64,000 nucleotides of DNA. Origin: Lachnospiraceae bacterium (GTDB lineage Bacteria > Bacillota > Clostridia > Lachnospirales > Lachnospiraceae). Below the pieces are notes generated by a model. The model searched no databases, was not told where the DNA came from, and was given only the letters and a program-made list of their open reading frames with translations. Positions 681-45,831 of this stretch are shown in pieces; position 1 is the first letter of the stretch; each line of letters starts with the position of its first letter. The DNA lies in NCBI GenBank assembly GCA_017626095.1, contig JAGAJL010000023.1:51497-115496 (forward strand), read 5' to 3'. The position numbers were made by a program, and so were the translations under genes.

Positions 681-724
681 AATGATACTACAAAGTGTAT
701 AGCAATCCGTTGGTATCATGGGAA
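681..724 (-). repeat. Fragment of dispersed structured repeat family A (copy A1)
   Basis: The segment contains the family motif GCAATCCGTTGGTATCATGG, which matches the reverse complement of 3386-3406 and 25954-25976. It is bounded by the inverted pair ATGATAC (682-688) and GTATCAT (713-719). It lies 6 bases after the HD-GYP stop codon. Only the 5' third of the full element is present. Confidence 0.6.
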
Positions 725-3356: not shown

Positions 3357-3470
3357 ATGATGTTGAGGTCAAAAGGTATTTTGCTCCCATGATACCAACG
3401 GATTTCTGCGCACTTTGTGCTCTCGCAATCCTAAAATAGTTGAAATCCGCCCTAATCGGACTACTTTCAA
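3357..3470 (+). repeat. Dispersed structured repeat family A (copy A2, 5' two thirds)
   Basis: It starts 21 bases after the argJ stop with ATGATGTTGAGGTCAAAAGG, then CATGATACCAACGGAT and GAAATCCGCCC, all shared in order with 25928-26040. The stem GGATTTC (3400-3406) / GCAATCC (3425-3431) has one mismatch and encloses the conserved loop end CTCTCG. The terminal variable hairpin of the full copy is missing. Confidence 0.7.
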
Positions 3471-3563
3471 AATCAACACTTATACCATTTAAATTGAATT
3501 TCAATAGAAAAGTAAGATGCTTGTTACTATGTTAATCTTATAGAATTTAATAGTATTGAGAGA

Positions 3564-6055: not shown

Positions 6056-6176
6056 TTTGACTCTGGTATTATACTATGATGTGAATGTCAAAAGTAAATT
6101 TTGCGATTCGCTGATGTATATAGATTGCTACATTGCTATGCAATTCTCGCAACCGCGAAAATCTAATACTAAATTA
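6056..6176 (+). repeat. Dispersed structured repeat family A (copy A5, diverged)
   Basis: It begins with a 3'-end-like motif TTGACTCTGGTATTAT, then ATGATGTGAATGTCAAAAG and GATTGCTACATTGC with TCTCGCAACC. These align in order to the 5' half of the copy at 25928. It lies between the TPR lipoprotein stop and pyrF. Confidence 0.5.
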
Positions 6177-25737: not shown

Positions 25738-25856
25738 AATAAAAAAGGTTCAGCGAGAGCTGAGCTTGCTAATTAGCAATTCCGGAAGAATTCCCCTTTT
25801 ACACAAACAGGTAGGCCGAGCGCATGAAATGCGTTCGGTCTACTTGTTTGTGGGGA
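25738..25856 (+). ncRNA. Candidate structured RNA of unknown class
   Basis: Four helices follow each other: CAGC-GAGA-GCTG (25751-25762, a GNRA tetraloop), the palindrome TTGCTAATTAGCAA (25766-25779), GGAA-GAA-TTCC, then a 24-pair stem at 25802-25852 with three G-T pairs and a GAA loop. A T-rich stretch (ATATTTTTAT) comes next, so the last stem may double as the radA terminator. No known RNA family was recognised, and no coding gene follows for it to regulate before tRNA-Trp. Confidence 0.4.
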
Positions 25857-25927
25857 TATTTTTATGGGACGTTTTTTTGGTCACAGGGTGTCCCACTGTT
25901 ATACATTGTTATATATATGTATGTAAA

Positions 25928-26113
25928 TGATGTTGGGGTCAAAAGGTATTTAGATTCCATGATACCAACGGATTGCTACGAACTTTGTGCTCTCGTAATC
26001 CTAAAACATTCGAAATCCGCCCCAAACGGCTACTTTCTCATGTTTTGCGGGTCCCAAAGTCATACTTTTTCATGCGAGCATGAAAAGTATGACCTTTTGC
26101 CAATGGTATCATG
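25928..26113 (+). repeat. Dispersed structured repeat family A (copy A3, most complete)
   Basis: Module order: ATGATGTTGGGGTCAAAAGG; CATGATACCAACGG; stem GGATTGC (25970-25976) / GTAATCC (25995-26001) around a CTCTCG-ended loop; GAAATCCGCCC; CTACTTTCTCATGT; GCGGGTC; a variable hairpin at 26059-26093 with 16 paired bases; and TGGTATCATG, which is complementary to CATGATACCA near the 5' end. The whole 186-base unit can therefore fold back on itself. Confidence 0.8.
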
Positions 26114-26156
26114 TAAAAATGGGAATATAAAAAGCAAAAAGCAAAGAAAAAATAGC

Positions 26157-32000: not shown

Positions 32001-33050
32001 ATGGTTATGAATAGAAAATGGAAAAAGTATTTGGTGTTAATTGCAATATGCACAGGTCTTGCTGCATGTTTGACCGGCTGTAAGGTTCCTTTTTCTGATC
32101 GTACAGTGGAAAGGGTAGTGTTGACAACCGGATTTGATAAAGAGGGCGTGTTTCGGATTGGCACGGCTGTTTGCAGCAAAGATGAATTTATGCTTTATCT
32201 GACCAATACGCAAAATCGGTATGAAGAAATATATGGAAGCGAAATTTGGAATGTTGCTTCGGAAAATCAGACGCTGGAAGATAAAATCAAAGATATGGTC
32301 GGTGCACAGCTTGCACAGATTAAAACCATGAATCTTTTGGCAAAAGAAAATCATGTGACCATGACGGAGGAAGAAAAAAAGCTGGTTTCTTCTGCTGCAA
32401 AGGAATATTATTCTTCTTTGAACCAGCATGAAATTGATACTTTGAATCTCACGGAGGAAATCATTGCGGAGTATTATAGTGAGTATCTGATTGCTCATAA
32501 GGTTTATACGTACATTATCCGTGATATCAATCCGGAAATCAGTGATGATGAAGCAAGAACTGTGACGGTAGACTGGATTTATTTGAAATCCCCGGTTGAT
32601 GAATTTCAAATCAAGCAGAAAGCTTATAATGTTCTTGCAAAATTGCAGGCCGGAGAAGATTTTGAAGCCGTTGCAAATGAATACAGTGATGATCCGGTTT
32701 TAACGCATTCATTTTGCAAAGGCGTGGAAAGCCCGGAAATAGAAACCGTAGCATTTAATCTGGCGGAAGGTGAAATCAGTGATGTGATTTTTTGTATTGA
32801 CGGATATTATATTCTTCGTTGCGTCAGCACTCTTAACAGGCAGGAAACGGATGATAATAAAATCAGGATGGTAGAGCAACGGAAAAACGAAGCTTTTAAC
32901 GATGTATATGGTTCTTTTGCTAAAGAGCAGATTAAACAGTTGAACGAAGATGCCTGGGAAGAGATTGAATTGATTCAGGATGAAAATATTCAGACCTCTG
33001 ATTTTTTTGCCGTTTACGATCAGTATCTGGGCGAAATGAAACTACAGTGA
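32001..33050 (+). CDS. PpiC-type peptidyl-prolyl isomerase / foldase lipoprotein
   Basis: A 349-residue exported protein. A basic N-terminus and hydrophobic run end in LTGC (Cys27 from the first Met), a lipobox. A SurA-like helical chaperone region is followed by a parvulin domain (about 185-290: ISDDEARTVTVDWIYLKS, AGEDFEAVANEYSDDP, FNLAEGEISDVIFCIDGYYI). PrsA-like foldases help secreted proteins fold outside the membrane. The His residues typical of active parvulins are not obvious, so catalysis is uncertain. Either ATG 32001 or 32007 may be the start; neither has a strong ribosome site. Confidence 0.85.
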   Translation: MVMNRKWKKYLVLIAICTGLAACLTGCKVPFSDRTVERVVLTTGFDKEGVFRIGTAVCSKDEFMLYLTNTQNRYEEIYGSEIWNVASENQTLEDKIKDMVGAQLAQIKTMNLLAKENHVTMTEEEKKLVSSAAKEYYSSLNQHEIDTLNLTEEIIAEYYSEYLIAHKVYTYIIRDINPEISDDEARTVTVDWIYLKSPVDEFQIKQKAYNVLAKLQAGEDFEAVANEYSDDPVLTHSFCKGVESPEIETVAFNLAEGEISDVIFCIDGYYILRCVSTLNRQETDDNKIRMVEQRKNEAFNDVYGSFAKEQIKQLNEDAWEEIELIQDENIQTSDFFAVYDQYLGEMKLQ

Positions 33051-33149
33051 AATCCGCCCTGTCGGGCTGCTTTATCATGTTTTGCGGGTCTTAAAGACAT
33101 GCTTTTTTGTACAAGCACAAAAAGCATGTCCTTCTGACCCTGGTATCAC
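33049..33149 (+). repeat. Dispersed structured repeat family A (copy A4, 3' half)
   Basis: It starts at the foldase stop codon: GAAATCCGCCC, then CTTTATCATGTTTTGCGGGTC, a hairpin at 33096-33130 (GACATGC...GCATGTC), GACCC and TGGTATCAC. Compared with the hairpin of copy A3, four base pairs are changed on both sides so that pairing is kept. GGGTC and GACCC form an outer stem around it. Confidence 0.75.
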
Positions 33150-35682: not shown

Positions 35683-35717
35683 TTCTTTCTCATGTTTCAT
35701 TTGACCATGGTATTATG
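35683..35717 (+). repeat. 3'-end fragment of repeat family A (copy A6)
   Basis: TTTCTCATGTTT then TTGACCATGGTATTATG matches the 3' part of copies A3 and A4, with the variable hairpin deleted. Confidence 0.4.
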
Positions 35718-40405: not shown

Positions 40406-40744
40406 CATAGTTTAACATCCTTTTCGGATTTGTGTCTCCCCGCATTTATAATATAGAAAGCGCGAGGACATATCCGTCACCCTCATAGAAATATATATCT
40501 TTGTCCGCGGAATTTGGCGAGGTTTCTTGGCATTTCTTAGCGGCATAAGCGAACAAAATTATGCCCGGTTTCAACTGTTCGAAGACGAAGTCTGAGTTTT
40601 GAAACCGGGTATTTAATATATTTTTTGTGAGCATGCCGCTTAGAAATGCCGGAAAGCGAAGTATGAAGCGGCAAAGATATATATTTCTATGAGGGTGGCT
40701 GCCATCCCACAAGGATTTAACATTGTGAGAAAAGCGGAACATAA
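40406..40744. other. 339-base gap between convergent genes, filled by foldback element B
   Basis: The gap between the plus-strand M14 paralog and the minus-strand transglutaminase gene is occupied mostly by the nested inverted repeat at 40478-40697. No separate terminator is seen; the element could end transcription from both sides. Confidence 0.65.
40478..40697. repeat. Nested foldback element B (220 bp)
   Basis: Three nested arm pairs: 26-bp perfect outer arms (40478-40503 and 40672-40697), 18-base arms with one mismatch (40529-40546 and 40633-40650), and 11-bp perfect inner arms CCCGGTTTCAA / TTGAAACCGGG (40564-40574 and 40599-40609). The centre CTCAGACTTCGTC-type sequence is shared with 4750-4773. 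No transposase frame is inside, so it looks like a MITE or a large structured RNA/DNA element. Confidence 0.85.
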
Positions 40745-45387: not shown

Positions 45388-45407
45388 AGTAACCCCTTTT
45401 TATTTTT

Positions 45408-45644
45408 TCTCCACCCATTCGCAATCCGTTGATTTTCTGTTAAAAATCACTACTTGCTCATGTGTGTCATTGCAGTTTCGGTTATGATATACGAATTGCT
45501 CCGCTGCCAAGCAGCTCTCGCAATTCTCCACCCATTCGCAATCCGTTGATTTTCCGCAGAAAATCACTACTTGCTCATGTGTGGGCGGGTCAATAAATAA
45601 CAATTCTTATCCTGCAAGCAGGAACGAATTGTAATTTTTGACCC
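45408..45644 (+). repeat. Dispersed structured repeat family A (copy A7, internally duplicated)
   Basis: A 59-base unit CCACCCATTCGCAATCCGTT... is present twice (45408-45466 and 45525-45583), each with a TGATTTT/AAAATCA hairpin and CTACTTGCTCATGT. Between them, GAATTGC (45493) pairs with GCAATTC (45520) around a CTCTCG-ended loop as in other copies. GGGTC (45587) and GACCC (45640) enclose a nested hairpin with ACAATTC/GAATTGT and CCTGCAAGCAGG. Confidence 0.75.
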
Positions 45645-45831
45645 TATATATATCATATTTTATATACCTATTATAAGCAAGAAAAATTATAAAAAATTCA
45701 CTTTTTGAATTTGTTTTTTGAAGAGAATATGCTCTGCCGCTATTACAAACTTTTTGTTAATCATAACTTTAGGAAAATAGCAAATCGTCCTTTCTTCATG
45801 GCGAAAATCAGTAGAAAACAGACCAAGATAG

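Follow-up and report, generated by a model that had tools for sequence, protein, structure and literature searches.

The Clostridiales-1 motif is listed in the table of Weinberg et al. (2010) as probably RNA and not cis-regulatory, with occurrences in Clostridiales and the human gut (PMC2864571, table entry). Rfam files it as RF01699 under the type 'Gene; sRNA', a label that is silent on mobility, element ends and target duplication, and it has been an orphan 'sRNA' family since 2010. Prokaryotic MITEs, as characterised in the sections of PMC3852290 drawn on here, are short, gene-less elements of high copy number with inverted ends like those of insertion sequences and with target duplications, and their similarity to the partner insertion sequence is limited to the ends. 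The enterobacterial repeats RU-1 and RU-2, mobile intergenic sequences of 127 and 168 bp, are likened to MITEs in the abstract of PMC2759123. Among insertion sequences themselves, IS1272, a member of the IS1182 family, is reported in the corresponding part of PMC5678879 to target stem-loops, which it replaces without leaving a duplication.

Here we report that Clostridiales-1 is likely, judging from comparison of its copies across genomes, to form the inner part of a MITE, non-autonomous and about 182-203 bp long, for which an IS1182-like transposase would act in trans; the element probably relies on the enzyme of a larger transposon for its spread in the genomes of gut bacteria. The core of the repeat is already catalogued as RF01699, and its physical nature is the new part: a literature search of open-licence papers found no source identifying Clostridiales-1 as mobile, and within that literature a Clostridiales-1 MITE with an IS1182-like partner is a new identification. 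An entry in PMC4081043 concerns 'orf01699' and not the Rfam family. The element has the small size, lack of genes, inverted ends, duplications and high copy number of the MITEs described above, and differs from that description in an interior that is not common to the partner and that covaries strongly over many genera. With RU-1 and RU-2, as far as their published description goes, it shares the character of a small mobile intergenic repeat; the hosts differ, and the likeness is one of description only. The copy number, scatter and random orientation of RF01699 are explained once it is read as a transposable element, and this reading points to a partner that can be tested.

Two copies in the window, the whole 64-kb stretch of DNA analysed, pass the curated Rfam cut-off for RF01699 (48 bits) with scores of 102.2 and 117.8 bits. 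The focal copy is a full-length element of 182 bp at 25929..26110 on the minus strand, with both ends matched and the RNA sense on the minus strand. Its RF01699 core lies at 25960..26111 (minus strand, 102.2 bits), its left terminal repeat GATACCATTGGCAAAAGG at 26093..26110 (minus strand, three mismatches to the family end) and its right terminal repeat CCTTTTGACCCCAACATC at 25929..25946 (minus strand, exact). It is flanked by the two copies of a target duplication read from the sequence, ATGTAAAT at 25921..25928 and ATGTAAAA at 26111..26118, which are equal at 7 of 8 bases; the orthologue in genome G003 has an exact 8-bp pair, ATTTACAT. The second scoring copy, at 45485..45655 (minus strand, 117.8 bits), is a full copy of an older subfamily that has no right-end hairpin, and it is adjoined by a partial second copy covering the hairpin-2 region at 45407..45466 (minus strand, 93% identity over 60 bases).

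The remaining members in the window are incomplete. One truncated copy at 3359..3503 (minus strand) keeps the right end with one mismatch at 3359-3376, and its RF01699 match at 3390-3503 stays below the cut-off (42.9 bits, E 4.5e-6). Another at 33049..33147 (minus strand) keeps the left end and hairpin 1, recognised by an end match together with an RF01699 match at 32990-33148 that is likewise below the cut-off (43.8 bits, E 2.5e-6). Rfam does not reach 681-724, 6056-6176 or 35683-35717, where we recognised by eye an internal-deletion derivative (681..724, minus strand, of the same type as loci L135 and L136) and two degenerate remnants, at 6056..6176 (left end with four mismatches at 6070) and at 35683..35717 (minus strand, left end with four mismatches at 35714). 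Two other Rfam matches in the window, SpF41_sRNA and mir-2187, score under their own cut-offs and were rejected. By Rfam, end matching and inspection by eye combined, family sequence of unequal quality is thus present at all seven of the dispersed loci named by the original prediction, which had not recognised the family now seen to have RF01699 as its core. Its modules were given on the strand opposite to Rfam's, and the right-end hairpin was not counted in the unit. Rfam shares the core sequence and structure with the element, ends about 31 bp before the element's right end and misses one hairpin.

A search of the whole genome for further copies, proposed at the outset, was productive. In G000, the genome that contains the window (2.74 Mb in 55 contigs, 86.6% complete), RF01699 is matched 46 times at E<=1e-3, with 22 of the matches above the cut-off, compared with none in 14 control genomes, and several element copies in G000 break off at contig ends, as is usual for repeats. 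Counting this genome, 51 of 145 relatives have an RF01699 match, above the cut-off in 40, and the matches summed across these 51 genomes number at least 451. Of two patterns written for the element's ends, the right-end pattern gave 31 matches against 1 for its reversed form and the left-end pattern 68 against 3; in viral contigs the left-end pattern was found in two stretches and the right-end pattern in none. The absence of a transposase inside the repeat, already noted from the window, holds for what is a short element in many dispersed copies. The statement that most copies sit within 30 bases of a stop codon did not carry over to the larger set, in which a crude ORF scan gives at most 16 of 103 full copies.

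The limits of the element, GATACCAGGGTCAAAAGG to CCTTTTGACCCCAACATC, were read from near-identical copies with unrelated flanks, and give a length of about 182-203 bp with termini GAT....GGGTCAAAAGG and its inverse. The stretches analysed contain 45 elements whose ends are crisp, and in 34 of these the target is duplicated exactly over at least 7 bp; 2000 shuffles or re-pairings of the right flanks gave a mean of 1.2 and a maximum of 6; the duplications are 7-8 bp long with the consensus ATNNNAT. Forms of 69 bp that carry hairpin 1 only (L166, L168 and L179), and one form that carries the right hairpin only (L200), have duplications of their own, a picture that deletion after insertion could equally give. 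The element also occurs in head-to-tail arrays, of 3.8 copies at L112, 2.9 at L047, 2.1 at L055, 1.9 at L053 and 1.8 at L035, and of 2.0 copies at a single place covered by L038 and L100, where one target sequence is common to the two copies (L100). Separately, the rumen genome RUG12263 has another class of MITE (L236, L251, L257, L267 and L277) with like ends and target duplications, the interior of which, unlike that of Clostridiales-1, carries CGTCAATATGCACAAA inverted repeats.

These duplications bear on the choice offered by the original prediction between a MITE, a REP-like element and a mobile structured RNA. REP-like elements, or palindromic ones derived from IS200/IS605, which would move as single strands, would be dispersed and would have hairpins at and near both ends, as seen here; REPs and elements of the IS200/IS605 type are not known to make target duplications, and the REP-like reading is therefore unsupported. 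Inverted ends with target duplications of 7-8 bp, exact over at least 7 bp in so large a share of the crisp-ended copies, make it extremely improbable. The MITE reading stood, on inverted ends, duplications, empty sites, the number of matches and the existence of insertion sequences with matching ends.

Comparison of filled and empty sites in close relatives, another suggestion made from the window alone, was carried out by joining, for each of eight copies, its two flanks across a single copy of the target and searching nine genomes of the genus, and empty sites were found for two of the eight. The site of L005 is contiguous and empty in two sister species, G003 and G008, with 97% identity across the junction in the alignment, and the site of L022 is empty in G008 at 88%, with eight gapped bases and an approximate join of the flanks. 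At the focal site G003 carries the element; no element is seen in G001, G004 and G006, where the region is diverged, and in G008 the site is rearranged. At the site of L009, occupied in G000 and by L430 in G003, genome G008 holds a copy of another subfamily (L431) at the same position, adjoining the stub of an older element, which indicates either that one element replaced the other or that a tandem insertion was later cut back by deletion. The L006 and L009 sites of G008, with other sequence in place, were left out of the orthologue comparison.

The interior is highly structured. In an alignment of 29 representatives RNAalifold predicted 34 pairs, of which 28 have changes on both sides, and 30 hand-picked pairs of the conserved helices comprise 835 Watson-Crick, 10 G-U, 8 A-C and 12 other cells with 5 gaps; the arms of hairpin 1 have 603 Watson-Crick, 25 G-U, 12 A-C and 83 other cells. 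Over the whole structure there are 41 G-U versus 34 A-C cells, a comparison of low power, as the TPP control in the same pipeline gave only 22 versus 13 (a tRNA control was dropped from this strand test, having 18 sequences only). When 39 copies in genome G046 were compared with their consensus, paired cells differed in 2.0% of cases and unpaired cells in 5.9%, a contrast that speaks against simple neutrality. Single changes in these copies amount to 32 G-U versus 19 A-C, and seven double changes restore Watson-Crick pairing (five of them being one shared change) against 0.84 double changes expected. In G000, the eight rows kept differ at 3.1% of paired and 6.7% of unpaired cells, the divergent subfamilies L004, L008, L011, L014 and L017 having been left out of the count. 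The lower variability of paired sites in G046, taken with the excess of G-U over A-C among the single changes there, may point to a function of the RNA strand.

Such figures might be expected of a family of host genes for small RNAs or cis-acting RNAs, with copies acting at their sites, a reading that is in line with the Rfam type, with the covariation and with the lower variability of paired sites in G046, and to which some divergent copies lying directly upstream of genes in sense orientation also lend support. Against it, the focal copy differs from the consensus by eight substitutions and a gap, and of its changed pairs five are broken, one is gapped and none is compensated; in its G003 orthologue all three changed pairs are broken. 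Orientation to neighbouring genes is not fixed: 171 distinct matches include 121 full ones, and after 18 that overlap crude ORF calls were left out, the element lies in the same orientation in 22 tandem gene contexts and in the opposite one in 22, with no bias; 19 contexts are divergent and 8 convergent. With target duplications and empty sites also against it, we regard a host RNA family as very unlikely.

On the MITE reading, and because strong covariation coincides with no orientation bias and with uncompensated decay of the focal copy, constraint on the interior seems to act on the lineage that spreads and not on the individual copy once it has inserted. Where a sequence is both mobile and palindromic, even strong covariation across many genomes does not prove a host RNA, and for many copies it is probably a mistake to annotate an RF01699 match as an sRNA gene. 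The divergent copies in sense orientation directly upstream of genes are L047 (the array of about three), L049, L011 and L014; by eye, we take the genes downstream to resemble fabF, rplK, pflA and tpiA, and it is possible that these copies are domesticated.

Candidates for a partner were sought by scanning for opposite, widely spaced ends with a pattern that avoids the most frequent inner bases, which among the matches listed returned L324, an IS1182-like transposase gene between matching ends. A PDDEXK_2 gene at L248 between opposite ends 2.5 kb apart was taken as a chance arrangement because it shows no target duplication and a second gene lies between the ends. At least seven other candidates had such ends; besides L324 they included L165, L186, L192 and L175, which turned out to be short elements of their own or remnants, and L251, where a different MITE is present in two copies. 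ISAs1, with its CAGGG ends, was also rejected as a partner: its NCBIfam model NF033564 matched in 3 of 13 genomes, and the five loci inspected (L206-L210) are without the element's ends.

A second IS1182-like gene, L331, is found in G001, a genome of the window's genus, between the ends GATTTAAGGGTCAAAAGG and GATTTGAGGGTCAAAACC, its right flank being cut by a contig end. The encoded protein matches Pfam DDE_Tnp_1_6 at 50.8 bits (cut-off 25.1); its best NCBIfam match is IS1182 (NF033551) at 135.9 bits, below the cut-off of 270, and we call it 'IS1182-like' on that account. A search of 397 genomes gave kin of this transposase in 21. Thirty loci were retrieved with it: L370 (a MITE) and L379 (a likely chance match) were set aside, 20 have at least one MITE-like end, some of these being overlapping stretches of one copy, and eight have no such end (L361, L367, L369, L376, L377, L380, L384 and L385); at L361 variant ends were recognised by eye, embedded in a larger inverted repeat. 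Ten insertion sequences have both ends and both flanks, and five show exact duplications, of 8 bp at L358 and 7 bp at L359, L360, L363 and L368. L361 matches at 6 of 7 bases, and the other four (L324, L357, L362 and L378) show no target duplication. Lengths are 1.84-2.02 kb, except for L368 at 1.05 kb. At L357 and L362 the ends are identical over 17 bases to the right end of the MITE (GATGTTGGGGTCAAAAG). The RNA profile reaches at best E=0.54 in these insertion sequences, and two of the three matches listed are their tips; the ends are therefore shared and the interior is not.

Ends common to the MITE and the IS1182-like insertion sequences occur in G001 and in further genomes. The genome of the window itself yielded no partner with these ends, the sole IS1182-like match there (L332) showing none, and no empty site for the L359 insertion sequence was found in 79 genomes around G338. 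Two elements on G000 contigs C15 and C32 (L062 and L067/L150) end exactly 7 bp from GAGTTGCCCGACAAAT...ACCTTGAAAACTT, a sequence that resembles the variant ends of L361; because both contigs break there, a collapsed IS1182-like repeat may be present in G000.

If a different transposase moves the MITE, and IS1182-like sequences have inserted into its palindromic ends, which then mimic ends of their own, similar junctions would result. The stem-loop targeting described for IS1272 (PMC5678879, relevant part) is the precedent for such an origin, and among the insertion sequences conservation is higher in the inner repeat ACCTTGAAAA than in the outer end; the larger inverted repeat around L361 is also in keeping with it. 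Against this, the outer ends co-vary with the insertion sequence, their variants GATTAGGGTG and GAGTTGCCCG being unseen as MITE ends here, and direct duplications of 7-8 bp abut the outer ends, whereas IS1272 is reported in the same source to leave none. Insertion into MITE palindromes is accordingly improbable, and the IS1182-like insertion sequences are the likely source of transposase for the MITE, which they would mobilise. The candidate partner has the same kind of DDE transposase as the IS1182 family and, at L361, palindromic surroundings; it departs from IS1272, as portrayed in that part of PMC5678879, in its 7-8 bp direct duplications, and from the family model in scoring under the NCBIfam cut-off.

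The ends, duplications, empty sites, matching insertion sequences and internal deletions observed here would be parts of a cycle in which the IS1182-like transposase would bind the ends common to insertion sequence and MITE and move the MITE in trans into AT-rich, roughly palindromic sites, where staggered joining would produce the target duplication. In copies that still move, the multi-helix interior would be maintained by selection, or else through the repair of imperfect palindromes; inserted copies would then decay, shed internal pieces and sometimes form tandem arrays. It is conceivable, if rather unlikely, that the interior is itself a working part of the transposition cycle, as a structured RNA or as folded single-stranded or cruciform DNA. 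Such an interior would let a gene-less element exploit a structure-sensitive IS1182-like transposase, for example by recruitment or by offering palindromes as landing sites, and structure-sensitive transposition is a lead here in view of IS1272, an IS1182-family member reported to replace its stem-loop targets. If the interior does work in transposition, Clostridiales-1 would be a fold-bearing class of MITE with covariation arising from selection on jumping and not on a host RNA; a fold needed for jumping would make it an unusual MITE, selected for its fold.

Two further features of the window lie outside this family, and neither has an Rfam match. At 40485-40612 (G000:C41:91981-92108) there is a copy of a second dispersed repeat family, about 125 bp long and built on a large hairpin ATGCCCGGTTTCAA...TTGAAACCGGGCAT, which among the matches listed occurs at more than 20 places each in G000 and G003 and at many in G008. 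At 25772-25852, a strong intergenic hairpin near tRNA-Trp is matched in all eight other genomes of the genus, and could be a small RNA or a terminator.
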